Positions 158 to 21,449 of a stretch of 23,907 nucleotides of DNA are shown piece by piece. The stretch lies in IMG/VR virus record IMGVR_UViG_3300031989_000019, positions 1 through 23,907 of that record. One strand, written 5' to 3'. The position numbers and the translations under genes are program-made. The notes beneath the pieces were generated by a model, which worked only from the letters and a program-made list of their open reading frames with translations, did not search any database and was not told the DNA's origin. Position 1 is the stretch's first letter, and each line of letters starts with the position of its first letter. The DNA comes from a virus.

Positions 158-739
158 ATGCCCTTTGATCTTTCAGTCGAGAGCGATCTGAAATCGCTGC
201 GCCGTGGCCTGAGTGCGCTGGAGAAGCAGGCCGTGCCGCAAGCGACCGTGCGAACCCTGAACCGAGTGGCGGAAAGCGCGAAGGTTTCAAGCGCCCGGCA
301 CATTGCCCCACAAATGGGCGGCAGGCAGGCTGCGGTAAAAAGACGTATCGAGACCCGCCCATCTACCTTCCGGCGTTTATGGGCGGCGCTGGTAGCAAGT
401 GAGCGGCCATTGCATTTGATCGAGTTCGTAGTCGGCTCCAAGAAGCCTACCCAGCAGCCCGGTGGCAAGCGCGGATTGGTGAAGGCCAAAGCATGGGGAA
501 AGAACCGCACCTATCGCAGCGCCTTCATCGCGCCGCGCAAGAAAGGATCGAATGCCACGGAGGTCTATATGCGGAAATCTGGGAAGCGGTTGCCGCTGAA
601 GCTGTTGTTCGGACCCGGCATCATGCAGCTGTTTAAGCAACGGGAGAATGTCCAGACAATGGAACAGACGGTGAATGACCGTCTGCCCAAGGAGTTTATG
701 CAGAACCTCGCCTACTACATGGCGAAGATCAGGCGTTAG
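158..739 (+). CDS. Phage minor tail protein Z-like (tail completion protein, gpZ family)
   Basis: Predicted 193-residue basic protein. The N-terminal part (AVPQATVRTLNRVAESAKVS) matches the gpZ pattern of 'AVP..A...A.NRVA.SA', and the C-terminal DRLPKEF...L.YYM matches the lambda gpZ ending 'ERLPKEL...L....'. The length is like lambda gpZ (about 190 aa). In lambda, gpZ acts at the last step of tail completion so that tails can join heads productively. I chose ATG 158 over an in-frame TTG at 146 because TTTGGA lies 7 bases upstream of it. The gene sits before the terminase block, whereas lambda Z lies between FII and U; no second Z-like gene is seen there. Its stop overlaps the stop of the convergent gene by two to three bases. 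The family call is firm, the role is by homology. Confidence 0.8.
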   Translation: MPFDLSVESDLKSLRRGLSALEKQAVPQATVRTLNRVAESAKVSSARHIAPQMGGRQAAVKRRIETRPSTFRRLWAALVASERPLHLIEFVVGSKKPTQQPGGKRGLVKAKAWGKNRTYRSAFIAPRKKGSNATEVYMRKSGKRLPLKLLFGPGIMQLFKQRENVQTMEQTVNDRLPKEFMQNLAYYMAKIRR

Positions 740-1104
740 TATTCATGCGTGAGCATAATCGTCAGCACGCGGGTGGTGACGTCAGGGTTGGCCGGGTCTT
801 CTGATCCGGCGTCCATCGTGTTGTTGTAATAATCGATTTTGAAAAAGAACTCGTGGTTGTCGATCTCGATCTTGCCGAAGTCGTGCTCGCCATGCGGATC
901 ATTACGCCAGTCGAAGCTATCGAATTCAGCGACGGCTCTGAACAGCCGTGCCTTAATGTCCTCGGATAGTTCGTTCACGCCGCAGGTGGTCATGACCTTG
1001 CCGCCCCAGTAGGTCTGGCGGAAGCGATCATTCAGTTCGGCGATGCGCTTGGCATATTCGCGGGAGTCGATGGCTTTTTCGTTGGTGTTGGTGGCTGCTA
1101 TCAT
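736..1104 (-). CDS. DUF3768 family protein of unknown function
   Basis: A 122-residue acidic soluble protein on the opposite strand to all other genes. It carries the hallmark pattern of DUF3768: IAELNDRFRQTYWGGKVMTT near residues 21-40, NDPHGEHDFG near 68-77, KIDYYN near 88-93, GSEDPANPDVTTRVLTIMLT near 99-118 and a final HEY. No enzymatic function is known for the family, which is common on alphaproteobacterial plasmids and phages (from memory). On the coding strand AAGAAAGG lies about 10 bases before the ATG. It is convergent with the Z-like gene, and the two stop codons overlap (TTA 736-738 read on the - strand against TAG 737-739), leaving no space for a shared terminator. No signal peptide or membrane segment is seen. 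Confidence 0.82.
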   Translation of the reverse strand: MIAATNTNEKAIDSREYAKRIAELNDRFRQTYWGGKVMTTCGVNELSEDIKARLFRAVAEFDSFDWRNDPHGEHDFGKIEIDNHEFFFKIDYYNNTMDAGSEDPANPDVTTRVLTIMLTHEY

Positions 1105-1398: not shown

Positions 1399-1989
1399 AT
1401 GAAAGTAGAACTGATGCCGGTGGATCAGGTGATTCCCTATGCGCGGAACCCACGGATCAATACCCACGCGATTGAGAAGGTGGCGGCGTCCATCAAGGAG
1501 TTTGGATTCCGCCAGCCCATTGTCACCGATAAGGAGCTGGTGATTGTCGTTGGTCATGTGCGCTTTGAGGCAGCCAAGCGGCTGGGCTTGAAAAAGGTGC
1601 CGGTGCATATCGCCACCGAGCTAACGCCGGAGCAGATCAAGGCCTACCGCATCACCGATAACCGCGTGGGCGAAGAATCGGAATGGGACAAGGCGCTGCT
1701 TCAGCTGGAGATCGCCGAGCTGGATGATGCCACCTACGACACCGAGCTGCTCGGTTTCAATGCGGAGGAACTGAAAGAGATTCAGACGTCGCTTGATTCG
1801 ATGGAAGACGGCTTCGGCAAGGATGATGACGACGACATCGAGGAAGCAGACACCACCGCCCGGATCGCTGCCTACACATTCCCTATCCCACGCGAGCAAT
1901 ATCTCGAATGGATGGAAGCCATAAAGCAGCAGGTTGGCTTTGAGAAAAAAGAGATCATCGCAGAACTTAAACGCAGGCTTGGATTATGA
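1399..1989 (+). CDS. ParB/Srx-like N-terminal domain protein
   Basis: A 196-residue protein with a ParB-like nuclease-fold domain in its first ~90 residues: it opens with MPVDQVIPYARNPRIN, followed by IKEFGFRQPIV and the family signature GHVRFEAAKRLGLKKVPVHI (near residues 52-71), with the GxxR core used by ParB for nucleotide binding. It then has a helical region with a strongly acidic patch (GFGKDDDDDIEEAD, near 138-151) and a basic C-terminal helix. It lacks the DNA-binding HTH and dimerisation domains of chromosomal ParB. Phage proteins of this type are usually found next to terminase genes or fused to DNA methylases, suggesting a role in DNA modification or packaging rather than partition (inference). 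AAGGAG lies about 9 bases before the ATG. The stop overlaps the next start as ATGA, so translation is probably coupled. Confidence 0.82.
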   Translation: MKVELMPVDQVIPYARNPRINTHAIEKVAASIKEFGFRQPIVTDKELVIVVGHVRFEAAKRLGLKKVPVHIATELTPEQIKAYRITDNRVGEESEWDKALLQLEIAELDDATYDTELLGFNAEELKEIQTSLDSMEDGFGKDDDDDIEEADTTARIAAYTFPIPREQYLEWMEAIKQQVGFEKKEIIAELKRRLGL

Positions 1990-3500
1990 AACTCGTGAAT
2001 GTGAAAGACATTGCGCCCTCGACGTATAACCCGCGTGTGGCCGATCCGAAGCGACTGGACTTGATCGAGCTATCGCTGCGTAAACTGGGGTTTTTGTTGC
2101 CGCTCTATGCGACGCCAGATGGAGAAATCATCTCCGGCCACCAGCGTCATCATGTGGCGTGCCGTATGGGTGCCAGCCAAGTGCCTCTGGCTGTCACCCG
2201 CCCGATGGATCTGGCCGAGCGAAAAGGTGTGAACGTGGTGTTTAACCGCGCCACCAATGACCTCGGCCAGAGTGACACGGTGGAGAAGATCAATACGCAA
2301 CTAAACGCGGCGGATGTAGAGAAGCTGGCCGAAGCCGTGCCGGACAAAGCGGTGGATTCGCCGGAGTTCTTCCCGTGCCTGAATGCGAAGCTACACCCGA
2401 TTGCACCGTTCTTGAAAGCTAATCAGGGACGCTGGAAGAATTACGCGCTGAACCTCGCCAAGACGCTCAAGCGCCGTGGCATTGCCATGCCGATTGTGGC
2501 CACGCGGGACTACCGGGTGGTGAATGGCATTGGCCGCTTGCAGCATTATGCGGAGCTGGGCGAGGAACAAGTGCCGGTGGTGTTCGTGACAGACGCAGAA
2601 GGCAAGCTGGCGGAAGCCATGCTGAACTACCTCTCGATGGATTTTGATATTCATCGCCGTTACGAGGATCTGCTGCGCCATAATTCTTTCAGGCGCCTGC
2701 GTCAGGTGCGCGAGTCGCTGGGACGTGGCTTCATCTTCGCGGTGGCGGGTGATGCGACGGCCAAGAGCTTTGATGTCACCAAGCCGGAAAACCGCGAGCG
2801 CTGGATCGGCAAGTTTGGCCGCTGCGTGCTGGATTTTGGCGCAGGCCATTTGCATGAAACCCGCATCCTACGCAGCCTCGGCGTGATGGTGACGCCGTTC
2901 GAGCCGTACCGGGTGGCGGAGAGTAACGAGATCGACAAGGAAGCAAGCGTGGCGCTGGCGCGTGAGTTTCTGCACGCGATTGGCACAGAGAAGCTGCGCT
3001 ATTCTTCGATCTTTATTTCCAGCGTGCTGAACAGTGTTCCCTTCCGCGCAGACCGCGAGCATATCGTGTGCATCTGCGCGGCGCTGGCTCATGCCACCAC
3101 GCGGCTTTACGCGGTGGCATCGGCCAGCAACCACATCAACATCAAGCAGCTCAATGGCTATCATTCCCTGAATGAGCGGCAATCAAGCGGCGTGCTGTTT
3201 CAGCTGGATTACGAGGAAGGCATCACGCTTGGTGACATTGCCACCTCGCCGAAGGTGCAGAAGTATCATTCCCAGCGGGAGTTTTACGATCTGTTCAAGC
3301 TGTTCTTTGAAAAAGTCAGCGTGGATGATTGCAATCAGAATGTGCAGGCGATCTGCGCGAAGCCGCTGGAAATAAATATCAAAAGACTAAAAGCAGCTAT
3401 CGAGTTTGAGTTTGATTTACCCTATCCTGATGGCAGTCGCATGGGATTGGTAGAGGAAGCAAAACGCGCATTCTCAGCGCGGCTGGGGGTGAAACTATGA
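1986..3500 (+). CDS. Double ParB-like domain fused to a class I SAM-dependent methyltransferase-like domain
   Basis: A 504-residue protein with three recognisable parts. Residues 1-75 form a ParB-like domain with GHQRHHVACRMGASQVPLAV at 51-70. Residues ~150-205 look like a second, diverged ParB-like unit, with MPIVATRDYRVVNGIGRLQH at 168-187 and a QVPVVF strand. Residues ~275-460 look like a Rossmann methyltransferase: VLDFGAG at 281-287 as the SAM-binding glycine motif, an acidic residue after strand 2 (FEP near 305), and ISSVLNSVPFRADRE near 344-358 where motif IV/helix D would be. No NPPY/DPPY motif typical of N6-adenine or N4-cytosine methylases is seen, so the target is unknown. It is coupled by ATGA to the genes on both sides. 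The ParB call is strong; the methyltransferase call is moderate and rests on motif I and position. Confidence 0.7.
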   Translation: MKLVNVKDIAPSTYNPRVADPKRLDLIELSLRKLGFLLPLYATPDGEIISGHQRHHVACRMGASQVPLAVTRPMDLAERKGVNVVFNRATNDLGQSDTVEKINTQLNAADVEKLAEAVPDKAVDSPEFFPCLNAKLHPIAPFLKANQGRWKNYALNLAKTLKRRGIAMPIVATRDYRVVNGIGRLQHYAELGEEQVPVVFVTDAEGKLAEAMLNYLSMDFDIHRRYEDLLRHNSFRRLRQVRESLGRGFIFAVAGDATAKSFDVTKPENRERWIGKFGRCVLDFGAGHLHETRILRSLGVMVTPFEPYRVAESNEIDKEASVALAREFLHAIGTEKLRYSSIFISSVLNSVPFRADREHIVCICAALAHATTRLYAVASASNHINIKQLNGYHSLNERQSSGVLFQLDYEEGITLGDIATSPKVQKYHSQREFYDLFKLFFEKVSVDDCNQNVQAICAKPLEINIKRLKAAIEFEFDLPYPDGSRMGLVEEAKRAFSARLGVKL

Positions 3501-3919
3501 TTATACTCCTTGATCTGAACTACACGCTGGTGGCGAACAGTCACGAAAAGCACAAACCCTTTGCCTTGCAGATCCAAAAGGAAACCTATCGCAACTGGCT
3601 GGTGAGTCTGGTTGCGCCGTATCACACCATATTGATGACGGCGCGGCCTGAGAAACACAAACAGGCCACGCTCGATAGCCTGTATTTCAAGGTTGGATGG
3701 GTGCCGCAAGAAGCGCATTTTAACCGCTTCCACAAACCGCCACACGAGGCCAAGCGCATCATGCTGGAAACGCTGGTATTCCCGAAGCACGGGCGCGAAG
3801 CCACGCAGTATCTGGCAATCGAGAGCAACCCACGCACGCAAGGCATGTACGCCGATTACGGCATTCCTTCGATCAAAGTATTTGAGAACGAACAATGGAC
3901 AGAACTTCCGAAACCTTAA
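3497..3919 (+). CDS. HAD-superfamily-like hydrolase with altered catalytic motifs
   Basis: A 140-residue compact protein with the layout of a small HAD phosphatase. Motif I is LLDLNYTLV (D6, N8, T10), motif II is ILMTARP (T48), a lysine-rich stretch HKPPHEAKR (K80/K87) fits motif III, and AIESNPRTQGMYADYGI (E109, N111) sits where the acidic motif IV is expected. D6 would be the nucleophile. The second Asp of the usual DxD is Asn here and motif IV has ES in place of DD/ED, so ordinary phosphatase activity is uncertain; HAD enzymes with non-Asp at the +2 position (phosphonatases, dehalogenases) do exist. It starts in the ATGA overlap with the ParB-methyltransferase gene and its end overlaps the next gene by 25 bases, which ties it to this cassette. 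Substrate unknown. Confidence 0.65.
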   Translation: MIILLDLNYTLVANSHEKHKPFALQIQKETYRNWLVSLVAPYHTILMTARPEKHKQATLDSLYFKVGWVPQEAHFNRFHKPPHEAKRIMLETLVFPKHGREATQYLAIESNPRTQGMYADYGIPSIKVFENEQWTELPKP

Positions 3920-4572
3920 TTGACATTCCCAAGGAATGGTCGTTCGAGAATGCCAGTGTAGCCCAGAGTTTTAACCACCATGTCCGCGAGCAGCTGCCGT
4001 GGTATGATTTGGTGACGGGCGCAGTGGCGCATATCGCACGGCATTACATTCCGCAAGGTGGGCTGGTCTATGACATCGGCGCATCCACCGGCAATATCGG
4101 TAAGGCGCTGGCCGATACGCTCGCCCAGCGGCAGGCCAAGCTGGTGCCGATTGAACCGAGCGCGGAGATGTGCGCCGAGTATTCGGGACCGGCCAAGGAA
4201 AACCTCGTGCAGATGGACGCCTGCGCGTTTGACTATGAACCGTTTGATGTCGCGATCTGTTACCTCGTCATGATGTTTCTGCCGGTGGGTGCGCGTCGCG
4301 AGTTTATTGCCAAGCTCCGCGCCTGCCTGAAACCGGGCGGCGCGATTGTGATTGTCGATAAATGCGAAGCGGCCACCGGTTATCAGGCCACGGTGCTGTG
4401 GCGGTTGACGCTGGCGGGAAAAGTTGCCGCCGGTGTGGAGCCAAAGCAAATCATCGCCAAAGAATTATCACTCGGTGGCGTCCAGCGCCCACTTGATCCT
4501 GCCATACTCGGAGAAGATGCAGCAGAATGGTTTCGGTTTGGAGAGTTTGCGGGGTGGATTATCACGACATGA
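3895..4572 (+). CDS. CmoA-like class I SAM-dependent methyltransferase
   Basis: A 225-residue cytosolic protein. Residues 15-60 (W-S-F-E...VAQSF..HVREQLPWYDLV) match the N-terminal pattern of the CmoA/tRNA carboxy-SAM synthase branch ('F....VA..F..h...s.P.Y..i'). They are followed by VYDIGASTGNIGKALA at 58-73 (SAM motif I), VPIEPSAEM at 84-92 (motif II with E87), FDVAICYLVMMFLP at 117-130 and LKPGGAIVIVDK at 145-156. The family makes or uses modified SAM for tRNA wobble uridine modification in bacteria; whether the phage protein does the same, or is a general methyltransferase, cannot be read from sequence. It overlaps the HAD gene by 25 bases and precedes the small terminase by 12, so it closes the four-gene cassette. 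Confidence 0.75.
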   Translation: MDRTSETLIDIPKEWSFENASVAQSFNHHVREQLPWYDLVTGAVAHIARHYIPQGGLVYDIGASTGNIGKALADTLAQRQAKLVPIEPSAEMCAEYSGPAKENLVQMDACAFDYEPFDVAICYLVMMFLPVGARREFIAKLRACLKPGGAIVIVDKCEAATGYQATVLWRLTLAGKVAAGVEPKQIIAKELSLGGVQRPLDPAILGEDAAEWFRFGEFAGWIITT

Positions 4573-4584
4573 TAGGAATCCCTC

Positions 4585-5214
4585 ATGCAAATTCTTCACA
4601 AGGTCGCGGTGATTTCAAAGTTTTTGAACCTTACCGAACGCCGGGTGCAGCAGCTGGCGCGGGATGGCATCATCCCCAAAGCAGAGAAAGGCAAATACGA
4701 TCTGGTGCGCTCGGTGCAGCGCTATGTGCAGTATTTGCAGGATCGCGCCTATGGCAACGCCGATGCGCCGCGTGACACGCACCACGAACGCGCACGACTG
4801 ATCAAGGCGCAGGCCGATAAGACTGAACTCGAAGTGGCCGCGCTTCGTAATCAACTGATTTCGATTGAAACGATTGAACATGACTGGATGCAGCAAGTTT
4901 CTGCCTGCCGGATGCGGCTGCTTGCGATTCCCACCAAATGCGCCTTCCAGATCGCCGCCCTCAAGGAACCCGCCGAAATTGAGCGGTTCCTGAAGGCTGC
5001 GATTTATGAGGCACTCACGGAACTTGCCCATGATGACGCCCTACCAGAGCTTGAAGAAGAAAGTCCGGCAGGTGTGGATGCCGCCGCCGGAACTGACAGT
5101 GAGCCAGTGGGCGGACACGCACCGGAAACTAAGCCCGGAGGCAAGCGCCGAGCCCGGAAGGTGGAGGACGGATCGCGCCCCATACCAGCGCGGGATGATG
5201 GACGCAGTGAATGA
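4585..5214 (+). CDS. Terminase small subunit (Nu1-like, DNA recognition)
   Basis: A 209-residue protein whose first ~55 residues form a winged helix-turn-helix (VISKFLNLTERRVQQLARDG, then IIPKAEKGKYDLVRSVQRYV) like lambda Nu1, which binds the cos/pac region and recruits the large subunit. The middle (HERARLIKAQADKTELEVAA, residues ~69-88) is a helical, coiled-coil-like segment typical of the family. AGGAA lies 6 bases before ATG 4585. The last ~60 residues are low in complexity (A, E, G, R rich) and are encoded in another frame over the conserved start of the large terminase gene, an overlap of about 185 bases. This tail is either a dispensable extension or the result of loss of an earlier stop. 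Confidence 0.8.
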   Translation: MQILHKVAVISKFLNLTERRVQQLARDGIIPKAEKGKYDLVRSVQRYVQYLQDRAYGNADAPRDTHHERARLIKAQADKTELEVAALRNQLISIETIEHDWMQQVSACRMRLLAIPTKCAFQIAALKEPAEIERFLKAAIYEALTELAHDDALPELEEESPAGVDAAAGTDSEPVGGHAPETKPGGKRRARKVEDGSRPIPARDDGRSE

Positions 5215-6850
5215 AACCGGCGTGCGCGAAGTGGTGTTTATGACCTCCGCGCAGATCGGCAAGACGGAGATTCTGAATAACATTCTGGGGTATTTCGTTC
5301 ATCAAGACCCATCACCCATCCTGTTTATCCAGCCCACGCTGGAGATGGCAGAGGCATGGAGTAAAGACCGGCTCGCGCCGATGATCCGCGATACGGACGC
5401 ACTGACCGAACTGTTCAAAGACCCCAAAAGCCGCAACAGCGACAACACGCTGCTGCATAAGAAATTCGCCGGTGGGCATTTGACGATGGCGGGAGCCAAT
5501 AGCCCGTCATCGCTTGCCAGCCGCCCGATACGGATTGTGCTGCTCGATGAAGAAGACCGCTATCCCACCTCCGCCGGTGCCGAGGGTGATCCCGGCTCGC
5601 TGGCGCAGAAACGCACCACGACGTTCTGGAACCGGCTATTGGTATCGGCCAGCACGCCCACGATTGAGGGTGAAAGCAAAATAGAAGCTCGCTTTCAGCA
5701 AAGCGATCAGCGGCATTTCTTCGTACCATGCCCGGCATGCGGCACGTTTCAGGTGCTGCGCTGGGCGCAGGTGAAGTTTGATAAGAAGCAGCCCGGTGAC
5801 GCGCATTATGAATGCGAACACTGCAAGGCCACGCTGCAAGATAGTGACAAGCCGTGGATGCTCTCGCGTGGCAACTGGCGTGCGCAGGCTGAGTTTAGTG
5901 GTGTGGTGGGGTTTCATATCTCGGAGCTTTACAGCCCGTGGGTGCGCTGGGGCGAGATGGTGGAAAACTTCCTGAAGGCCAAGCGCCTGCCGGAAACACT
6001 GAAAGTCTGGGTGAATACCTCGCTGGGTGAAACATGGAAGGAAGCCACCGAAGGCGTGGATCATTCCGGCCTGATCAGCCGCAAGGAAAACTGGGGACGG
6101 GTCGCACCTGTTGGCGTGGTGGTGATCACTGCCGGGGTGGATGTGCAGGACGACCGGCTGGAGGCGGAGATCGTCGGCTGGGGTATCGGGCAGGAAAGCT
6201 GGTCGCTGCAATACCATGTGCTGCATGGTGATCCGGCGCAGGCGACTGTCTGGCAGGAGCTTGACCGGGTGCTGGGGCAAAGCCTCCAGCGTAGCGACGG
6301 CGTGGTGCTGAATGTCGGGTGCAGCTGCATAGACACCGGCGGTCACTATACGCAGAAAGTCTATGAATATTGCAAAGCACGGGAGCATCATCGCGTGTTT
6401 GCGATCAAGGGCGCGTCACAAATTGGCAGGCCTTTGGTGAGCCGGTTCAGCCGCACCAACAAGCTGCGGGTGAAACTGTTCACGCTCGGCACCGATACCG
6501 CCAAGCAGATGATCTATGCGCGGCTGCGTATCCATCAGCCGGGTGCGGGATATTGCCATTTCCCGGCGGAGTATCCGGAGGAATATTTCCGGCAACTGAC
6601 GTCCGAACGGGTGCAGACACGATTCGTCAACGGCCACCCTGCGCGGCATTGGGTACTGGCCAAAGGGCATCGCAACGAGGCGTTGGATTGCCGAGTGTAT
6701 GCGCTGGCGGCGCTCTACATCCTGAACCCGAACCTTGATGCGCTGGTGCAGGAGATGGAGCGCGAGCATTTGAACCAAAAGAAGCCTGAACCGGCGCAGC
6801 CAGACAAAGGCGATAGCTGGATCGGGTTTGATGATTGGAACTTTAACTAA
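5030..6850 (+). CDS. Terminase large subunit, lambda gpA family
   Basis: ATP-driven packaging motor and nuclease, about 606 residues. Counting from ATG 5030: the family N-terminus (LTVSQWADTHRKLSPEASAE, residues ~22-41, then WRTDRAPYQRGMMDA), a deviant Walker A TSAQIGKT (72-79), Walker B IVLLDEEDRYP (169-179), a paired CxxC zinc-ribbon-like insert (CPAC 234-237, CEHC 262-265), and the nuclease acidic residues in AGVDVQDDRLEAEI (D371), CIDTGG (D435) and NEALDCRVYALAAL (D553). These fit the GpA (PF05876-type) family. The start is uncertain: an in-frame ATG at 5006 and another at 5033 exist; 5030 has GGA about 9 bases upstream and places the protein near the conserved start. It is followed after 11 bases by the joining protein. 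Confidence 0.95.
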   Translation: MMTPYQSLKKKVRQVWMPPPELTVSQWADTHRKLSPEASAEPGRWRTDRAPYQRGMMDAVNETGVREVVFMTSAQIGKTEILNNILGYFVHQDPSPILFIQPTLEMAEAWSKDRLAPMIRDTDALTELFKDPKSRNSDNTLLHKKFAGGHLTMAGANSPSSLASRPIRIVLLDEEDRYPTSAGAEGDPGSLAQKRTTTFWNRLLVSASTPTIEGESKIEARFQQSDQRHFFVPCPACGTFQVLRWAQVKFDKKQPGDAHYECEHCKATLQDSDKPWMLSRGNWRAQAEFSGVVGFHISELYSPWVRWGEMVENFLKAKRLPETLKVWVNTSLGETWKEATEGVDHSGLISRKENWGRVAPVGVVVITAGVDVQDDRLEAEIVGWGIGQESWSLQYHVLHGDPAQATVWQELDRVLGQSLQRSDGVVLNVGCSCIDTGGHYTQKVYEYCKAREHHRVFAIKGASQIGRPLVSRFSRTNKLRVKLFTLGTDTAKQMIYARLRIHQPGAGYCHFPAEYPEEYFRQLTSERVQTRFVNGHPARHWVLAKGHRNEALDCRVYALAALYILNPNLDALVQEMEREHLNQKKPEPAQPDKGDSWIGFDDWNFN

Positions 6851-14529: not shown

Positions 14530-14620
14530 TGGGTATGAAATGGAGGTAACTGGATATAAATGGATATTGTCCTTGCTAATGGGTGATAAATGGATATAAT
14601 TGGGTATAAATGGATATGCA
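14530..14620. repeat. Eight tandem ~10-11-base units, consensus TGGRTATAAA
   Basis: Units start at 14530, 14541, 14551, 14561, 14580, 14591, 14601 and 14611 and read TGGGTATGAAA, TGGAGGTAAC, TGGATATAAA, TGGATATTGT, TGGGTGATAAA, TGGATATAAT, TGGGTATAAA, TGGATATGCA. They fall into two blocks of four, 50 bases apart, separated by CCTTGCTAA. The period is about one helical turn, so sites face the same side of the DNA. The stretch is far more AT-rich than its neighbours and ends 9 bases before the Fic start. Confidence 0.7.
14573..14600 (+). promoter_or_regulatory. Sigma70-type promoter for the Fic gene
   Basis: TTGCTA (14573-14578), 16-base spacer, TATAAT (14595-14600, perfect -10). Transcription would start near 14607, giving a leader of ~23 bases before ATG 14630. 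The -35 lies between the two repeat blocks and the -10 lies within a repeat unit, so a protein bound to the repeats would compete with RNA polymerase. Confidence 0.5.
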
Positions 14621-14629
14621 GAAGGCCTT

Positions 14630-15688
14630 ATGCTCCAATTCAAGAATATCGTTATCACCACAGAAATCCTTAAATATATCAGTGAAATAGATGAATTTAA
14701 GGGCAAGTGGCAAGCCACGCAGGACTTAGCGCCCGACCGCCTGAGCAGCCTCAAGCGCATTGCTACCATTGAGAGCGTGGGTTCTTCCACCCGTATCGAG
14801 GGCGCAAAGCTCACAGATGAACAGGTAGAAAAGCTGCTTTCCAAGCTGGAGCAGAAATCCTTCACCACCCGCGATGAGCAGGAAGTGGCAGGCTATGCTG
14901 ATGCGATGGATATGGTGTTTGAAAGCTATGATCACATCGCCCTGACCGAAAACCACATTAAGCAGCTGCATGGTGTTTTGCTGAAATACAGCACCAAGGA
15001 TGCAGAGCATCGTGGATCTTACAAGAACGTCACCAACCATGTGGAAGCATTCGACGCAGACGGCAAAAGCATCGGGGTTGTCTTTCAAACGGCCACCCCG
15101 TTTGAAACGCCGCTTATGATGAAGGAGTTGGTGGAGTGGTACAACGCGCAGGCGAATGAAGAAACGCAGCATCCGCTGCTACTCGTGGCGGTGTTTATTG
15201 TGGTGTTTCTTGCCATCCACCCGTTCAAGGATGGGAATGGAAGGCTTTCGCGTATCCTGACCACCTTGTTGTTACTACGCGCCGGTTATTCCTATGTGCC
15301 TTACAGCTCAATGGAAACAGTGATCGAGGCCAACAAGGAAAACTACTATCTGGCACTGCGCCGCACGCAACAAACGATCCACACGGAAAACCAGAACTGG
15401 GAAGCATGGCTGACCTTCTTCCTGAAAACGATGGTGAAGCAAAAAGACAATCTTGCTTTTAAGGTGAAGGAAGAGCGAAGCCTGCGCGAGGCACTGCCAG
15501 CGCTATCGCGCACCATACTGGAGATGGCCAACACGCGTAGCGAGATCACTGTGCGTGAAATCGAGGAAGCAACACAGGCCAACCGCAATACGATCAAAGC
15601 GCACCTGAAGAAACTGGCAGAGCAGGAATATCTGGTGGCCGTCGGTAAAGGGCGCGGCGCTCGCTATACAGTGAAGAAGCAAGGCTAA
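14630..15688 (+). CDS. Fic family protein with C-terminal winged helix (class II, self-inhibited)
   Basis: A 352-residue protein. Residues ~1-90 form the Fic N-terminal helical domain with the inhibitory motif SSTRIEG (52-58, [S/T]xxxE[G/N]). The Fic core has the intact catalytic motif HPFKDGNGRLSR at 197-208. Residues ~295-350 form a winged HTH (EITVREIEEATQANRNTIKA, then HLKKLAEQEYLVAVGKGRGA). Fic enzymes transfer AMP (or other nucleotide parts) from NTPs to target proteins; nothing in the sequence names the target. The frame opens at TTG 14600, but ATG 14630 has GAAGG upstream and lies after the promoter. It sits between tape measure and distal tail genes, flanked by its own promoter and terminator, which is moron-like. 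Possible roles are altering host proteins or excluding other phages (inference). Confidence 0.88.
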   Translation: MLQFKNIVITTEILKYISEIDEFKGKWQATQDLAPDRLSSLKRIATIESVGSSTRIEGAKLTDEQVEKLLSKLEQKSFTTRDEQEVAGYADAMDMVFESYDHIALTENHIKQLHGVLLKYSTKDAEHRGSYKNVTNHVEAFDADGKSIGVVFQTATPFETPLMMKELVEWYNAQANEETQHPLLLVAVFIVVFLAIHPFKDGNGRLSRILTTLLLLRAGYSYVPYSSMETVIEANKENYYLALRRTQQTIHTENQNWEAWLTFFLKTMVKQKDNLAFKVKEERSLREALPALSRTILEMANTRSEITVREIEEATQANRNTIKAHLKKLAEQEYLVAVGKGRGARYTVKKQG

Positions 15689-15752: not shown

Positions 15753-15773
15753 CATCAACAGTGGATCATCACC

Positions 15774-16355
15774 ATGAGCTTTGTAGAAGTCCAATTCCCC
15801 AGCGACATCAGCTATGGGGCAACCGGCGGACCCATGTTCTTAACGGATGTGGTGGCCACGGTTTCCGGCCATGAACAGCGCAACAGCAAGTGGAGCCAAG
15901 CGCGTGCGCGTTACAATGTGGCCTCCGGCGTCAAAACCGAAACGCAGTGGCAGGCGCTGATTGCCTTCTTCCGGGCGCGTCGAGGCAAGGCGGTGGGGTT
16001 TCGCTTTAAGGATTGGGGCGATTTCAAGGCGGTGAACCAGCCGCTGCTCTTACTCGGTGGCACCCAGTATCAGCTGGTGAAGCAATATGTGAGCGGCGCG
16101 GTGGTATCCGAGCGGATCATCAGCAAGCCTGTGGCGGGAACAGTGAAACTTTACCGCAACAGCATTTTGCAGGCCAGCGGCTGGAGCATCGACACCACCA
16201 CCGGCATCATCACCACATCGCTCACCGGCACGCTCACGGTGGATTTTGATTTCGATGTGCCGGTGCGTTTCGATACCGACGAGCTGGCGCTCTCGCTCGA
16301 TAGTTTCAATGCTGGAAGCTGGAACAACATTCCGCTGATCGAGGTGCGTGTATGA
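15774..16355 (+). CDS. DUF2460 distal tail protein (GTA gp12-like)
   Basis: A 193-residue protein matching DUF2460: VQFPSDISYGATGGPMFLTD (residues 5-24), the SGHEQRNSKWSQARARYNVA block, LIAFFRARRGKAVGFRFKDW with GDF, and the ending FDVPVRFDTDELALSLDSFN then NIPLIEVRV. In Rhodobacter gene transfer agents this protein forms the distal tail ring between tube and hub. The frame is open from GTG 15735, but that codon lies inside the terminator stem, and ATG 15774 begins the conserved domain. No clear ribosome-binding site precedes the ATG, which is odd for a structural gene. It is coupled by ATGA to the hub gene. Confidence 0.9.
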   Translation: MSFVEVQFPSDISYGATGGPMFLTDVVATVSGHEQRNSKWSQARARYNVASGVKTETQWQALIAFFRARRGKAVGFRFKDWGDFKAVNQPLLLLGGTQYQLVKQYVSGAVVSERIISKPVAGTVKLYRNSILQASGWSIDTTTGIITTSLTGTLTVDFDFDVPVRFDTDELALSLDSFNAGSWNNIPLIEVRV

Positions 16356-17215
16356 GAGTCATCTCCCCACAACTGGAAGCGCATTTTGCTGGTGGCCTGA
16401 CCACGCTGGCCACTTGCTGGCGGCTGACGCGGCAGGATGGCGCGGAGCTTGGCTTCACTGACCTTGACCGCACGTTGGTGATAGACACACTGGAATATGA
16501 TTCCATCGCAGGGTTCACGCCCACCACGGTGGAAAGCAAGTCCAACATGAGCGTGGATAATCTTGATCTGGAGGGGCAGACATTCCCCTCGAAGATCACG
16601 GAATCCGATCTGCTGGCTGGCATGTATGACTATGCCGAAATCGAGATATTCCTGGTCAATTACGAGGATTTGGCTCAGGGCAAGCTGGTGGTGAAGCGCG
16701 GACGGCTGGGTGAAGTGACACTGAACGCGCAAATGTTCCATGCCGAAGTGCGCGGCCTCACGCAGCATTTAAGCCAGACGATTGGCGAGGTGTATTCGCC
16801 TTCCTGCCGCGCTGTGCTGGGCGATAGCCGGTGCAAGGTGAATCTCGCCAGCGTCACCATCACCACCACCGTTTCGGAAGTGGTGAGCAATCAGACCTTC
16901 AAGGCCAATGCGCTGACGCAGGCGGCGGGTTGGTTCACCGGCGGCGAAGTGGAATGGACAAGCGGCAACAATGACGGGCGGCGCATGGAGGTGAAGGAGT
17001 TTTCCTCCAAGCAGGTGGTGCTGGCGCTGCCGATGGGCAAATCCATTCAAGTGGGTGACGGGTTCAAGATCATCGCTGGATGCGACAAGACGCATGAGAC
17101 CTGTCAGGCGAAGTTTAACAACATCCTTAATTTCCGTGGAGAGCCGTATGTTCCCGGTGTGGACGCGCTACTCACCACGGCAGGAACCATGAGCAAGAGC
17201 AACCGCAATGGCTAG
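16352..17215 (+). CDS. DUF2163 / phage BR0599 family hub protein (GTA gp13-like)
   Basis: A 287-residue protein. The N-terminal DUF2163 domain has LATCWRLTRQDGAELGFTDL (residues 19-38), then MSVDNLDLEG; the C-terminal BR0599 domain has SPSCRAVLGDSRCKVNLA (149-166) and AGCDKTHETCQAKFNNILNF (242-261) with RGEPYVPG. Four cysteines (C152, C161, C244, C251) in two pairs resemble the arrangement in lambda gpL, known to hold an iron-sulfur cluster; cluster binding here is an inference. It forms the trimeric hub at the tail tip. ATGA overlap with DUF2460, 8-base overlap with the peptidase gene. Confidence 0.88.
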   Translation: MRVISPQLEAHFAGGLTTLATCWRLTRQDGAELGFTDLDRTLVIDTLEYDSIAGFTPTTVESKSNMSVDNLDLEGQTFPSKITESDLLAGMYDYAEIEIFLVNYEDLAQGKLVVKRGRLGEVTLNAQMFHAEVRGLTQHLSQTIGEVYSPSCRAVLGDSRCKVNLASVTITTTVSEVVSNQTFKANALTQAAGWFTGGEVEWTSGNNDGRRMEVKEFSSKQVVLALPMGKSIQVGDGFKIIAGCDKTHETCQAKFNNILNFRGEPYVPGVDALLTTAGTMSKSNRNG

Positions 17216-17693
17216 AATCACCAAACCAGAAATCATCCTGCAAGCACGCACATGGCTTGGCACGAAGTATCACCACCAAGGGCGCTTGAAGAAATCCGCT
17301 GCTGGCGCGGGTGGTGTGGATTGTATCGGCCTGATCATCGGCGTGATTGACGAGCTGGGCTTACAGGATGGAAACGGCACGCCGCTATCGGCGCATGATG
17401 AGTTTAACTATTCCATGCACCCGGAGCGTGGACGACTGGTAGCGAGTATCCAGAAGCATTTGCGTGAAGTGCCGCTGGCGAAAATGACGGAAGGCGATGT
17501 GCTGCTCTTTCGTACCTTTCGCGATCCTCAGCATGTGGGGCTGCTTACCAACTATCCGACCGGCGGACCCGGCTTGATCCATTGCAATTCCAGCGCTGGG
17601 CGCGTGGTCGAGCAACCGCTTTCCGATGCGTGGGTGCGAATGCTCACCCATGCCTATCGTTTCAAACCTGAACAACTCGAACCGTTGAAGTGA
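17208..17693 (+). CDS. NlpC/P60 tail-tip cell-wall peptidase (GTA gp14-like)
   Basis: A 161-residue cysteine peptidase. GGVDCIGLIIGV gives the nucleophile Cys39, DPQHVGLL gives His109, and LIHCNSSAGRVVE gives the third polar residue (His125 or Asn127). The length and the closing HAYRF pattern match the short phage type (TIGR02219-like) rather than host NlpC/P60 enzymes, which carry signal peptides; none is seen here. It would cut peptide cross-links in peptidoglycan when the tail tip crosses the periplasm. It lies between hub and TIM-barrel genes, the same order as in gene transfer agents. Confidence 0.92.
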   Translation: MARITKPEIILQARTWLGTKYHHQGRLKKSAAGAGGVDCIGLIIGVIDELGLQDGNGTPLSAHDEFNYSMHPERGRLVASIQKHLREVPLAKMTEGDVLLFRTFRDPQHVGLLTNYPTGGPGLIHCNSSAGRVVEQPLSDAWVRMLTHAYRFKPEQLEPLK

Positions 17694-17696
17694 GTC

Positions 17697-20600
17697 ATGG
17701 CTGATATAGTCCTTCCAGTCGTTGGTGGTGTGACCGGCTTTGTGCTGGGTGGTCCCTCGGGGGCGATCCTTGGCGCGAATCTGGGCGGCATGGCGGCGGG
17801 TATGTTTTTCCCGAAAAGCCAGCGCGTGCAGCTGCCCACGCAGGAGGGACCCCGCCTTGCCGATCTTCGGGCGCAGATTTCCACCTACGGGAACATGATC
17901 CCCAAAGTGTATGGCACGATGCGGCTGGCCGGGAATGTGATCTGGGCAACGGACATTAAGGAAGTGCGCAGCGAGAAAACCACCACGCAAACTTCTAGCG
18001 GCGGCGGTAAAGGTGGCGGCGGTGGCGGCAAAACCACCACCAGCCAAACCACCATTTCCTATGAGTATTTTGTCACGCTGGCGATTGCGATCTGCGAAGG
18101 CCAGATTGATGAAGTAATCCGCGTATGGGCAGATAGCAAGGTGCTGACGGAAGCGGAACTTTCCGCCGCACAGGGCAAGTATAACGTCCATTTTGGGGAT
18201 GAAACCCAAGGTGTCGATGACATCATGGCCAAATACCTGCCAGCCGGAACCATCCCGGCGCATCGCGGCTTGGCCTATGTGGTGATCGAGGATTTTCCGC
18301 TCGCGGCGTATGGCAACCGCATACCGAACTTTACCTTTGAAGTGCGCCGGACGGTAAAATTCAGCCCCAGCGTTGAAGAAAAGGTGAAGGATATTGTGAT
18401 CATCCCCGGCGCTGGGGAATTTGTCTATGGAACGCAGGTCACGACCAAGCAGGACGGGTATTATGCCTATTTCGGCGGTGCGTTCACTCCGTCAGGCGAT
18501 AAGAAATCCATCAACATGCACAATTACGACGGCAAGGCCGATGTGCTGGTGGCGATTGATCAGCTAGTGAAGAACCTACCGAACCTTGAATGGGTGGCGG
18601 TGGTGGTGACGTGGTTCGCTACCTCCACCGATGCCGGTGCCTGCACGATCATCCCCAAGGTGGAGTTTCAGGGGACGACGCAAGTGTTGCCGCAAGACTG
18701 GAGCGTGGCAGGCATCAGCCGCGCCGCCGCGCAAGTGGTGCTGAATTTCGGGGACAACAAGCCCACCTATGGCGGCACGCCTTCGGATCACACGGTGGTG
18801 CAGATCTGCGCGGAACTGAAAAACCGTGGGCTGAACGTGATGTTCTACCCCATGATCTTCGTGGATACGATCACGCCGGAGCCAAAGCCGTGGCGTGGCC
18901 GCATTACGCCTGCAAATGCAACGGATGCCAACAACTGGTTCACTAAAACCAACGGCTACAATGCGTTCATCATGCACTATGCCAATCTGCTTAGTGGTGA
19001 CGTGGATGCGTTTGTGATGGGTTCGGAGCTGGTGGGCATGACTGGCTTCACCGATGCGCCGAGCAGCTATCCGGCAGTGTCGCGCCTTGTCACGCTGGCC
19101 GGTAGTGTGAAGGCCGCCATGCCGGGGACGATCATCACCTACGCGGCAGACTGGAGCGAATATCACAGCCGTGGCGGGTGGTTTAACCTCGATCCGCTGT
19201 GGGCATCCAGCAATATCGACGTGGTGGGGATTGATAGCTATTTCCCGATCACGCCGGACTTGCCGCAAAGCCAGATCACGCCAGAGCTGATCACCGAATA
19301 TTGGGAGAAAGGAGAAGGCTGGGATTATTACTATGCGGATTCGATGGCTCGCACTGGCCTCACGAACTACACGGATGCCAAATATGCGTGGAAGAACCTC
19401 GAATATTGGTGGAAGAACACGCATGTGAACCCGAACGCGGTGGCAACCGGATGGACGGCCAAAATGAAGCCCGTGTGGTTTACGGAGTTCGGCTTTCCCT
19501 CGGTGGATGGCTGCACCAACCAGCCCAACGTGTTTTATGATCCATCATCGAGCGAGAGTTTCTTTCCTCGCGCCAGCAAAGGCCGGGTGGATTTTCAGGC
19601 GCAGCGCGTGGCGATTGATGCAACGCTCGACTATCTGGAAGCACGCAGGCTGGAAACCGGCAACGCCAACCTTGTGCCGCGCCGGTTTATCTGGACGTGG
19701 GACGCACGGCCATTTTCCTTCTGGCCTGATCTCGAAGGCGTGTGGCAGGATTCGATCCTCTGGGCAACCGGCCATTGGGTGAACGGCAAGCTGGGCGCTT
19801 CCACGCTCGGCGCGGTGGTGGCGGAGTTGCTGCAAGCGGCTGGCCTTACGCCTTCGGATTACGATGTGACGCGCCTGACGGCCTCGCTGGAAGGGTTCAT
19901 CCTTCAGCAGCCTATCACGGTGCGCAATGCCATTGAGCAGCTAACTTCGGCGTTTTTCTTCGACATCGTGGAAAGCGACGGGATTCTGAAATGCGTGCCG
20001 CGTGGCAGCGCTTCGGTGAAATCCATCCCGGAGGATGATCTGATCCCCAGCACCAAAAGCGGCGTGCAGGATGTGCTGGAGATCAACTACGCGCAGGAGC
20101 TTGAACTGCCACAGCGTGTGAATGTGACCTATCTCGACCGGCCATTTAACTATGACCCGGTGACGCAGGTATCGCAGCGGCAGGTGGTGCGTGCGGTGGA
20201 TCAGGTAACGATCAATCTGCCGATTGTCATGGGCGCAACGCAGGCCAAACAGGTGGCGGATATTACGCTTTATGGCACTTGGAAGGAGCGCCTGAGCTTT
20301 TCGCTCACCGTGCCGCCAAAATATGTGCGGCTGGAACCCACGGATGTGATCACCGTCACTGTTTCCGGCGTCGCGCATGAAATGCGGGTGGTGAAAACCG
20401 ACATGGAATCCAATGGCCTGATGAAGATCAGCGCCGTGGCGGAAGATGTGAGTTCCTACGATTTCTACACCCCACCGGGTGAGACATCCCGCAACATCAC
20501 GCCGCCGGTGCTGGTGCCGGAAACGCTGGTGCAGTTTGTGGATGCGCCACCACTGCCCAGCGATACGGTGCAAAGCCAAGGCCTGCTGCGTATCGGGGTT

Positions 20601-21449
20601 GCGCCCGATGGCGCAGACTGGAACGGCGCAGCGGTTTATCGCTCGGATGATGGTGGCGAAGCTGGCGGCAACACCTTCAACCTGCTGGCAGGGCTCGAAG
20701 GTGCGGCCACGTTTGGCGCGATCATCACCAACCTTGCCGCTGGCAACACCGTGACGTGGGATCAGTTCAATCAGGTGGAGGTGCTGCTTACTGCCGGAAG
20801 CCTCGCCAGTGTCAGCGAGCTTGCGGTGCTGAACGGTGCCAATGCCGCGCTGATTGGTGACGAGCTGGTGCAATTCCAGAATGCGGAACTGATCGGGGAG
20901 CGCACTTATCGCCTTTCCCGGCTATTGCGCGGCCGTCAGGGTACGGAATGGGCGGTGGGTAGTCATACCGCCGGGGACAGGTTCATCCTGCTTTCTCCGG
21001 CGTTATATACAACCGCAATCCCGAATAACCTGATCGGGCGGCAGCTTTTCTATAAGGCGGTGAGCGTTGGTAACTCGTTAGGCAATACCGACCAGATCAC
21101 CTTTACCTACACCGGGCGAAACCTGAAACCCTTCGCACCGGTGCATGTTGCGGGTGTGCGGGATGGCTCCGGCAATCTCACCATCAGCTGGTTGCGCCGG
21201 TCGCGTGTGGATGCAGAATGGCGCGATGGGGTGGACATACCGCTGGGAGAGGAATCAGAACGCTATGAGGTGGAAATCTATAGCGGCCTGACACTCAAGC
21301 GCACGATTGCCACCACCAGCCCAACCGCCAACTATCCGGCAGCCGATCAGGTGACGGACTTCGGCAGCACGCAAACCAGCGTGAGTGTGAAGGTCTATCA
21401 GCTTTCCGCTGTGGTGGGGCGCGGATACGCCGTGAGCGCCAGCATTTAA
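17697..21449 (+). CDS. Tail tip 'megatron' host-specificity protein with TIM-barrel-like domain (GTA gp15-like)
   Basis: The largest gene, 1250 residues. A Gly-rich hydrophobic N-terminus (residues 4-38) precedes a Gly/Thr linker (~100-120). The GTA TIM-barrel-like domain spans roughly 295-690 (LEWVAVVVTWFATSTDAGAC; glycosidase-like blocks IDVVGIDSYFPI and VWFTEFGFPSVDGC near 592-605). A tail-protein domain spans ~740-930 (VQDVLEINYAQELELPQRVN). RTYRLSRLLRGRQGTEWAVG near 1070 lies in the C-terminal Rcc01698-type domain, and ~1140-1210 is fibronectin-like. In the related particle it encloses the baseplate and carries receptor-binding and periplasm-crossing functions. The glycosidase-like fold suggests glycan binding or cutting; activity is unproven. 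Confidence 0.92.
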   Translation: MADIVLPVVGGVTGFVLGGPSGAILGANLGGMAAGMFFPKSQRVQLPTQEGPRLADLRAQISTYGNMIPKVYGTMRLAGNVIWATDIKEVRSEKTTTQTSSGGGKGGGGGGKTTTSQTTISYEYFVTLAIAICEGQIDEVIRVWADSKVLTEAELSAAQGKYNVHFGDETQGVDDIMAKYLPAGTIPAHRGLAYVVIEDFPLAAYGNRIPNFTFEVRRTVKFSPSVEEKVKDIVIIPGAGEFVYGTQVTTKQDGYYAYFGGAFTPSGDKKSINMHNYDGKADVLVAIDQLVKNLPNLEWVAVVVTWFATSTDAGACTIIPKVEFQGTTQVLPQDWSVAGISRAAAQVVLNFGDNKPTYGGTPSDHTVVQICAELKNRGLNVMFYPMIFVDTITPEPKPWRGRITPANATDANNWFTKTNGYNAFIMHYANLLSGDVDAFVMGSELVGMTGFTDAPSSYPAVSRLVTLAGSVKAAMPGTIITYAADWSEYHSRGGWFNLDPLWASSNIDVVGIDSYFPITPDLPQSQITPELITEYWEKGEGWDYYYADSMARTGLTNYTDAKYAWKNLEYWWKNTHVNPNAVATGWTAKMKPVWFTEFGFPSVDGCTNQPNVFYDPSSSESFFPRASKGRVDFQAQRVAIDATLDYLEARRLETGNANLVPRRFIWTWDARPFSFWPDLEGVWQDSILWATGHWVNGKLGASTLGAVVAELLQAAGLTPSDYDVTRLTASLEGFILQQPITVRNAIEQLTSAFFFDIVESDGILKCVPRGSASVKSIPEDDLIPSTKSGVQDVLEINYAQELELPQRVNVTYLDRPFNYDPVTQVSQRQVVRAVDQVTINLPIVMGATQAKQVADITLYGTWKERLSFSLTVPPKYVRLEPTDVITVTVSGVAHEMRVVKTDMESNGLMKISAVAEDVSSYDFYTPPGETSRNITPPVLVPETLVQFVDAPPLPSDTVQSQGLLRIGVAPDGADWNGAAVYRSDDGGEAGGNTFNLLAGLEGAATFGAIITNLAAGNTVTWDQFNQVEVLLTAGSLASVSELAVLNGANAALIGDELVQFQNAELIGERTYRLSRLLRGRQGTEWAVGSHTAGDRFILLSPALYTTAIPNNLIGRQLFYKAVSVGNSLGNTDQITFTYTGRNLKPFAPVHVAGVRDGSGNLTISWLRRSRVDAEWRDGVDIPLGEESERYEVEIYSGLTLKRTIATTSPTANYPAADQVTDFGSTQTSVSVKVYQLSAVVGRGYAVSASI

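Follow-up and report, generated by a model that had tools for sequence, protein, structure and literature searches.

Organization of the cassette

The analysed stretch of DNA, referred to here as the window, comprises 23,907 nucleotides of the IMG/VR virus record IMGVR_UViG_3300031989_000019 (positions 1 to 23,907) and carries, directly upstream of its terminase genes, a cassette of four genes. They encode a ParB-fold protein, a fusion of two ParB domains with a class I methyltransferase (MTase) domain, hereafter P2, a HAD-fold protein and a CmoA-like protein (Table 1). All four genes lie on the plus strand. Successive open reading frames (ORFs) share 4, 4 and 25 bases, and the stop codon of the CmoA-like gene is followed after 12 bases by the start codon (ATG) of the small terminase gene, at position 4585. 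A first-pass annotation made from the sequence alone had described these overlaps and this gap, with which the ORF coordinates agree, and had assigned the same domain content, which is supported by matches in Pfam, PHROG, TIGR and PDB.

Table 1 Genes of the cassette and the adjoining terminase genes in the window
Feature	Length (aa)	Position	Strand	Supporting match
ParB-fold protein	196	1399-1989	+	Pfam ParB_N E 1.1e-8; phrog_620 E 1e-50
P2, ParB-ParB-class I MTase fusion	504	1986-3500	+	phrog_5475 over the full length, E 9e-104
HAD-fold protein	140	3497-3919	+	phrog_32036; AlphaFold2 pLDDT 96.6
CmoA-like protein	225	3895-4572	+	phrog_4752; TIGR00740 E 1e-12; PDB 4gek E 1e-9
Terminase small subunit (context)		4585-5214	+	phrog_57 E 1e-29
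Terminase large subunit, GpA type (context)		5006-6850	+	Pfam GpA_ATPase E 2e-94, GpA_nuclease E 2e-98

Conservation of the cassette as a module

The same gene set is found in well over 100 contigs of phages and prophages, far beyond chance. IMG/VR contains 122 relatives of P2, 51 of CmoA and 143 of HAD, and GTDB genomes add 68 further loci in Alphaproteobacteria, Verrucomicrobiota, Vibrio, Chloroflexota, Bacteroidota, Desulfovibrionaceae and Clostridia. Linkage was counted over 90 distinct P2 loci that had 2.5 kb or more of downstream sequence, and partners were scored within 4 kb. CmoA lies near P2 in 89 of these loci, HAD in 77 and a recognised large terminase subunit (TerL) in 68. The genes therefore travel as a unit, a point that the first-pass annotation had put forward for checking, and do not occur independently in relatives. 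The linkage is one-sided in one respect: P2 loci nearly always keep CmoA, whereas CmoA also exists without P2 and is then accompanied by CmoX, a transferase described below.

The GTDB loci show three main gene orders, namely ParB-P2-HAD-CmoA, HAD-ParB-ParB-P2-CmoA and ParB-CmoA-ParB-P2. Because the order varies while the content is kept, a joint function of these genes is argued. The Gordonia phage Evaa, deposited as complete, carries the same set at the start of its genome ahead of the terminase, with HAD on the opposite strand. The Aeromonas phage HJ05 and the Pseudomonas samunaviruses have the order ParB-P2-CmoA-TerS-TerL (TerS, small terminase subunit), and the genomes of HJ05 and the samunavirus PA_L9 are deposited as complete. 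In one P2 cassette, a gene for a TauD/TfdA-family dioxygenase (E 5e-16) lies between HAD and CmoA (L260 2269-3045).

The CmoA-like protein and carboxy-SAM

The CmoA of Synechococcus phage S-B43 (SpCmoA) is a proven synthase of carboxy-S-adenosylmethionine (carboxy-SAM), according to Yang et al. (PMC12783734). In the DNA modification by CmoA, CmoX and CmoY, which was published in December 2025, the C5-cytosine transferase CmoX uses carboxy-SAM to produce 5-carboxymethylcytosine in DNA, and CmoY adds glycine in the S-B43 system (PMC12783734). The authors saw ParB genes nearby and left their role unexplained, and next to phage CmoA they saw no candidate carboxymethyltransferase for N6 of adenine or N4 of cytosine (PMC12783734). 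The key chemistry, the formation of carboxy-SAM from S-adenosylmethionine (SAM) and prephenate, had been missed by the first-pass annotation.

Both the window CmoA and SpCmoA match phrog_4752 (E 2.7e-47 and E 7e-71, respectively), and both miss the TIGR00740 cut-off of 193 bits, with scores of 48 and 116 bits. Because the proven SpCmoA also falls below it, this cut-off leaves out a verified phage enzyme; on its sequence, the window protein is classed as phage CmoA-like, outside the TIGR00740 equivalog. It keeps each position at which 134 CmoAs, those partnered with CmoX among them, are at least 85% conserved. Arg199 of E. coli CmoA, which we take to be an important residue, corresponds to Glu in the window protein as well as in SpCmoA. 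Loss of this Arg was therefore rejected as a sign of a dead enzyme. The prediction that the CmoA-like enzyme is a carboxy-SAM synthase, acting on SAM and host prephenate, has good support from homology.

The entry step of the pathway to prephenate is catalysed by 3-deoxy-D-arabino-heptulosonate 7-phosphate (DAHP) synthase. Four P2 records, which represent two lineages, carry a gene for this enzyme, and a search of four CmoX records found it in none of them. In one locus (L084 4618-6903), the P2 cassette is preceded at a distance of about 3 kb by three consecutive genes, for a radical-SAM-like protein, a DAHP synthase and an acyl-carrier-protein-like protein. CmoA is also found in other settings. 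In Erwinia phage pEa_SNUABM_25 (L009 5980-9939), a CmoA-like gene without an adjoining CmoX or P2 is followed by a gene that by eye looks like a glycosyltransferase, a DUF1611 gene and an Asn-synthase/QueC-like gene. CmoA is present in dozens of jumbo phages related to pEa_SNUABM_25, and a homologue occurs in Staphylococcus SPbeta-like phages (KT429160.1 93417-94079).

Exchange of P2 with CmoX

Relatives of the window CmoA at 48-66% identity sit in ParB-CmoX-(AsnB)-CmoA cassettes, several of which have terminase genes downstream; the closest, at 66% identity, belongs to the ParB-CmoX-CmoA cassette L101. The SPPC motif and an Arg at the carboxymethyl-binding position, as in SpCmoX, are present in all 21 long CmoX sequences tested. 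A tree of CmoA with 134 rows, in which only well-supported branches were used to count changes of the CmoX label, forces at least five such changes, and hence the same cofactor maker has repeatedly changed its transferase. P2 shares the position of CmoX as the partner of CmoA beside ParB, and the two are not found together. A search for the carboxymethyl-type C5-MTase CmoX, which recovered all six CmoX records used as a positive control, found none in the 31 P2 records longer than 35 kb or in Bacteroides phage BS-TP3. Only four C5-MTases occur in those P2 records, and all of them have Asn at the key position.

Since CmoA without P2 pairs with a DNA carboxymethyltransferase of the proven CmoX type, the DNA-modification reading of the cassette is strengthened. 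The first-pass annotation had proposed a pathway that marks phage DNA, or an RNA, at packaging. The direction of this proposal was right in that the genes are likely co-expressed, near packaging genes and conserved as a unit, and the partnership of CmoA with CmoX now favours DNA.

Other partners of CmoA were considered. An N6/N4 MTase encoded elsewhere was rejected as the true partner because PF01555 is matched in only six of 35 records. A role in the tRNA modification uridine 5-oxyacetic acid (cmo5U) was rejected because none of these 35 records contains a gene of the CmoB family (PF08003). A CmoY-like ligase is not a fixed part of the cassette, as PF00733 is matched in a single P2 record, that of HJ05. 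In this phage, which has P2 without HAD, a CmoY-type gene resembling asparagine synthase lies about 3 kb after the DAHP synthase gene, which is in keeping, as one case, with an amidatable carboxylate on the P2 product. A structural or a partition role of the cassette was rejected by its domain content and linkage.

Structure and motifs of P2

Residues 3-72 of P2 match ParB_N above the Pfam cut-off, residues 156-208 form a second ParB-like stretch (phrog_12047 matches in two stretches), and the class I MTase fold lies C-terminal to both. Structure prediction, which the first-pass annotation had put forward as a check, bears out the folds of both P2 and HAD. The AlphaFold2 model of P2 has a predicted local distance difference test score (pLDDT) of 89.1 and a predicted template modelling score of 0.84, and its N-terminal ParB domain resembles CTP-bound ParB (Z 13). 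The top structural match of the MTase domain is METTL6, an N3-methylcytidine tRNA methyltransferase (Z 13.7, 9% identity), with many near-ties. Because unrelated class I MTases lie within about 2 Z units of METTL6, this match allows no functional inference, and METTL6 was dropped as a guide to P2.

All 103 P2 sequences carry motif I for SAM binding (D[FW]GAG) together with an invariant NS[VI]PF, whereas none of them has the PPC motif or the amino-MTase motif (D/N/S)PP(Y/F/W). Pfam matches on P2 are confined to ParB_N and Methyltransf_23, and PF13489 is matched by 11 of 21 P2 members. P2 is thus ruled out as a CmoX, which has the PF00145 fold, SPPC and an Arg at the position of HhaI N304, by the lack of PPC and of any such Pfam match, and as a canonical N6/N4 DNA amino-MTase by the missing (D/N/S)PP(Y/F/W). 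It was also rejected as a CmoB, since a profile comparison with PF08003 (Methyltransf_9) aligns only 15 columns of motif I. Because the P2 motifs are neither those of a C5-cytosine MTase nor those of a canonical amino-MTase, the target atom and the product would probably differ from those of 5-carboxymethylcytosine formation.

HAD and ParB as probable partners of the transferase

HAD goes with P2 and not with CmoX, being present in 77 of the 90 P2 loci versus none of 25 CmoX loci (PARTNERSHIPS). In P2 records that lack HAD in the cassette, it is absent elsewhere in most and present elsewhere in two. The best PDB match of the AlphaFold2 model of HAD is 5uj0, the 3'-phosphatase domain of T4 polynucleotide kinase (Pnkp), with Z 15.8 and a root-mean-square deviation of 2.2 over 124 residues. 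The protein lacks the full set of phosphatase motifs (a DxD nucleophile and the acid/base), though its fold is that of HAD. Of the DxD pair, the first Asp is kept, but 97 of 100 relatives have Asn as the second; Asp6, Thr48, Lys86 and Glu109-Ser110-Asn111 are invariant, the last three forming an ESN close to where motif IV is usually found. The Asn in place of the second Asp, this ESN and the lack of a kinase domain make a plain phosphatase role doubtful. HAD probably has a conserved active site with altered chemistry.

The ParB proteins also differ with the transferase. A zinc knuckle of the CPKCGYxWSGK type is present at the ParB C-terminus in 17 of 17 CmoX cassettes and in none of 82 P2 cassettes. 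Most ParBs before P2, including that of the window, have a helical tail instead, and this tail may dock on the transferase. ParB-fold fusions to bacterial SAM-dependent MTases bind ATP, according to one report (PMC12704722), which fits a nucleoside triphosphate (NTP)-binding role rather than a partition role for the ParBs of the cassette. Nothing in the analysis supports a nuclease action of the ParB domains, which the first-pass annotation had considered.

Proposed mechanism and alternatives

We consider it reasonably probable that the cassette modifies phage DNA by a pathway based on carboxy-SAM, in which P2 replaces CmoX and HAD is the partner of P2. The CmoA-like enzyme would convert SAM and host prephenate to carboxy-SAM, from which P2 would transfer the carboxymethyl group onto a base of the phage DNA. 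HAD may perform a step specific to the P2 product or its maturation. The separate ParB, like both ParB domains of P2, would bind NTPs and serve to position the transferase or to switch it, and would have no part in DNA partition. A place in the late operon agrees with DNA being modified before it is packaged, with protection against host nucleases as the probable purpose. What the sequences show is the gene layout, its conservation, the exchange with CmoX, the lack of CmoX in the P2 records searched, the motif counts and the predicted folds; we infer that P2 uses carboxy-SAM on DNA, with HAD acting on the product and ParB as partner of the transferase. More tentatively, P2 may found a second class of DNA transferases that depend on carboxy-SAM, unrelated to CmoX and directed at an atom other than C5 of cytosine, and HAD may follow up by chemistry unusual for HAD phosphatases.

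Several observations weigh against this pathway. Distances between P2 sequences correlate with those of HAD (rho 0.76), TerL (0.70) and ParB (0.67) more closely than with those of CmoA (0.50). A few P2 loci (L023, L214 and L218) lack an adjoining CmoA, and BS-TP3 encodes a distant P2-like protein without any CmoA in its 57.5 kb genome, which suggests that the wider P2 family may use plain SAM. Apart from motif I, no sequence relation to CmoB is detectable in the MTase domain of P2, and the invariant residues R231, R237, R357, K423 and K426 of P2 are only candidates for carboxylate binding. In BS-TP3, the ParB gene and the gene for this distant ParB-MTase stand directly before TerS-TerL (L007 5411-7419), a candidate plain-SAM branch.

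Among the alternatives, the one that survives best is that P2 or HAD acts on deoxynucleoside mono- or triphosphates, with HAD as a nucleotidase and a polymerase incorporating the nucleotide modified by carboxymethylation. The Pnkp phosphatase fold of HAD, the resemblance of the P2 MTase fold to small-molecule MTases about as well as to nucleic-acid ones, and a dCTP-deaminase-like gene close by in Samunavirus PA_L9 are consistent with it. However, CmoX, which P2 replaces, works on polymer DNA (PMC12783734), P2 cassettes lie mostly beside late packaging genes, and neither a kinase nor a polymerase is tied to the module, so that this explanation is unlikely.

Somewhat less likely still is that the module methylates DNA with plain SAM, while CmoA feeds carboxy-SAM elsewhere, for example to the host tRNA enzyme CmoB. 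CmoA adjoins P2 in nearly all loci and the 35 records lack a CmoB-family gene, both of which speak against it, as does the occurrence of P2 modules in Clostridia, hosts that are not expected to make cmo5U. In its favour are BS-TP3, with its P2-like gene and no CmoA, and ParB-MTase fusions, which are common in phages (PMC12704722). A counter-defence by cofactor depletion, in which CmoA drains SAM while ParB and HAD blunt other host signals, is improbable: SAM depletion by CmoA is posed as a question by Yang et al. (PMC12783734), but depletion accounts neither for the almost constant linkage to a transferase nor for the exchange with CmoX and the matched ParB tails, and a late operon is poorly placed for early counter-defence. 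Finally, since the window is a 24 kb fragment, a CmoX for ordinary 5-carboxymethylcytosine formation could lie outside it, with P2 as an accessory, but this is strongly disfavoured by the absence of CmoX from the long P2 records, including Evaa, HJ05 and PA_L9, and by the Asn rather than Arg of their C5-MTases.

Neighbouring genes in the window

Directly before the cassette lies a gene for a DUF3768 protein (739-1104, minus strand; Pfam E 3e-34), which is preceded by that of a GPZ-like neck protein (158-739); in close relatives, an ORF of like size is common on the minus strand at the DUF3768 position. A Fic/DOC-family protein (14600-15688, plus strand; Pfam Fic E 5e-18) is encoded between the tape measure and tail-tip genes, an odd place for such an enzyme. 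The tail-tip module (15771-21449, plus strand) resembles the Rhodobacter gene transfer agent, with DUF2460, Gp84-like hub, NlpC/P60, GTA_TIM and Rcc01698-like domains.

Relation to known systems and implications

The window cassette resembles the S-B43 CmoA-CmoX-CmoY system in having a CmoA of the same PHROG, a transferase beside CmoA in a phage gene cluster and a ParB gene, which is often present there (PMC12783734). It differs in lacking CmoX and CmoY, in having P2 and HAD instead, and in a ParB without the zinc knuckle. The E. coli CmoA-CmoB pathway of tRNA cmo5U shares with it a CmoA that is 23% identical to the window protein, with a common fold and motifs, whereas a CmoB-family gene is missing from the 35 records and P2 is like CmoB at motif I only. 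Phage ParB-MTase fusions likewise join a ParB fold to a Methyltransf_23 domain, but P2 has two ParB domains, and no connection to CmoA, HAD or carboxy-SAM is made in the accessible part of that report (PMC12704722). The 3'-phosphatase domain of T4 polynucleotide kinase has the HAD fold, but the window protein has DxN and no kinase domain. No earlier description of P2-HAD-CmoA was found in the literature searched, with preprints and most subscription papers outside the search, and nothing was found there on modified DNA in Samunavirus. Within that literature, the suggestion of an undescribed system applies to the P2-HAD half, while the CmoA half belongs to the known CmoA-CmoX-CmoY modification (PMC12783734).

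CmoX was the sole carboxy-SAM-dependent DNA transferase class reported in December 2025 (PMC12783734), and the P2 module is a candidate for another. A role is thereby suggested for the families PHROG 5475 and 32036, which have so far been without an assigned function, and the ParB tails, which match the type of transferase, give a handle on the role of ParB in such cassettes. Isolated P2 phages exist, namely Gordonia Evaa, Aeromonas HJ05 and Pseudomonas SM1, PaMx31 and PA_L9, so that virion DNA is accessible. If the proposed pathway is true, phages that carry the P2 module, whose hosts span many bacterial phyla, would contain a new natural DNA base.

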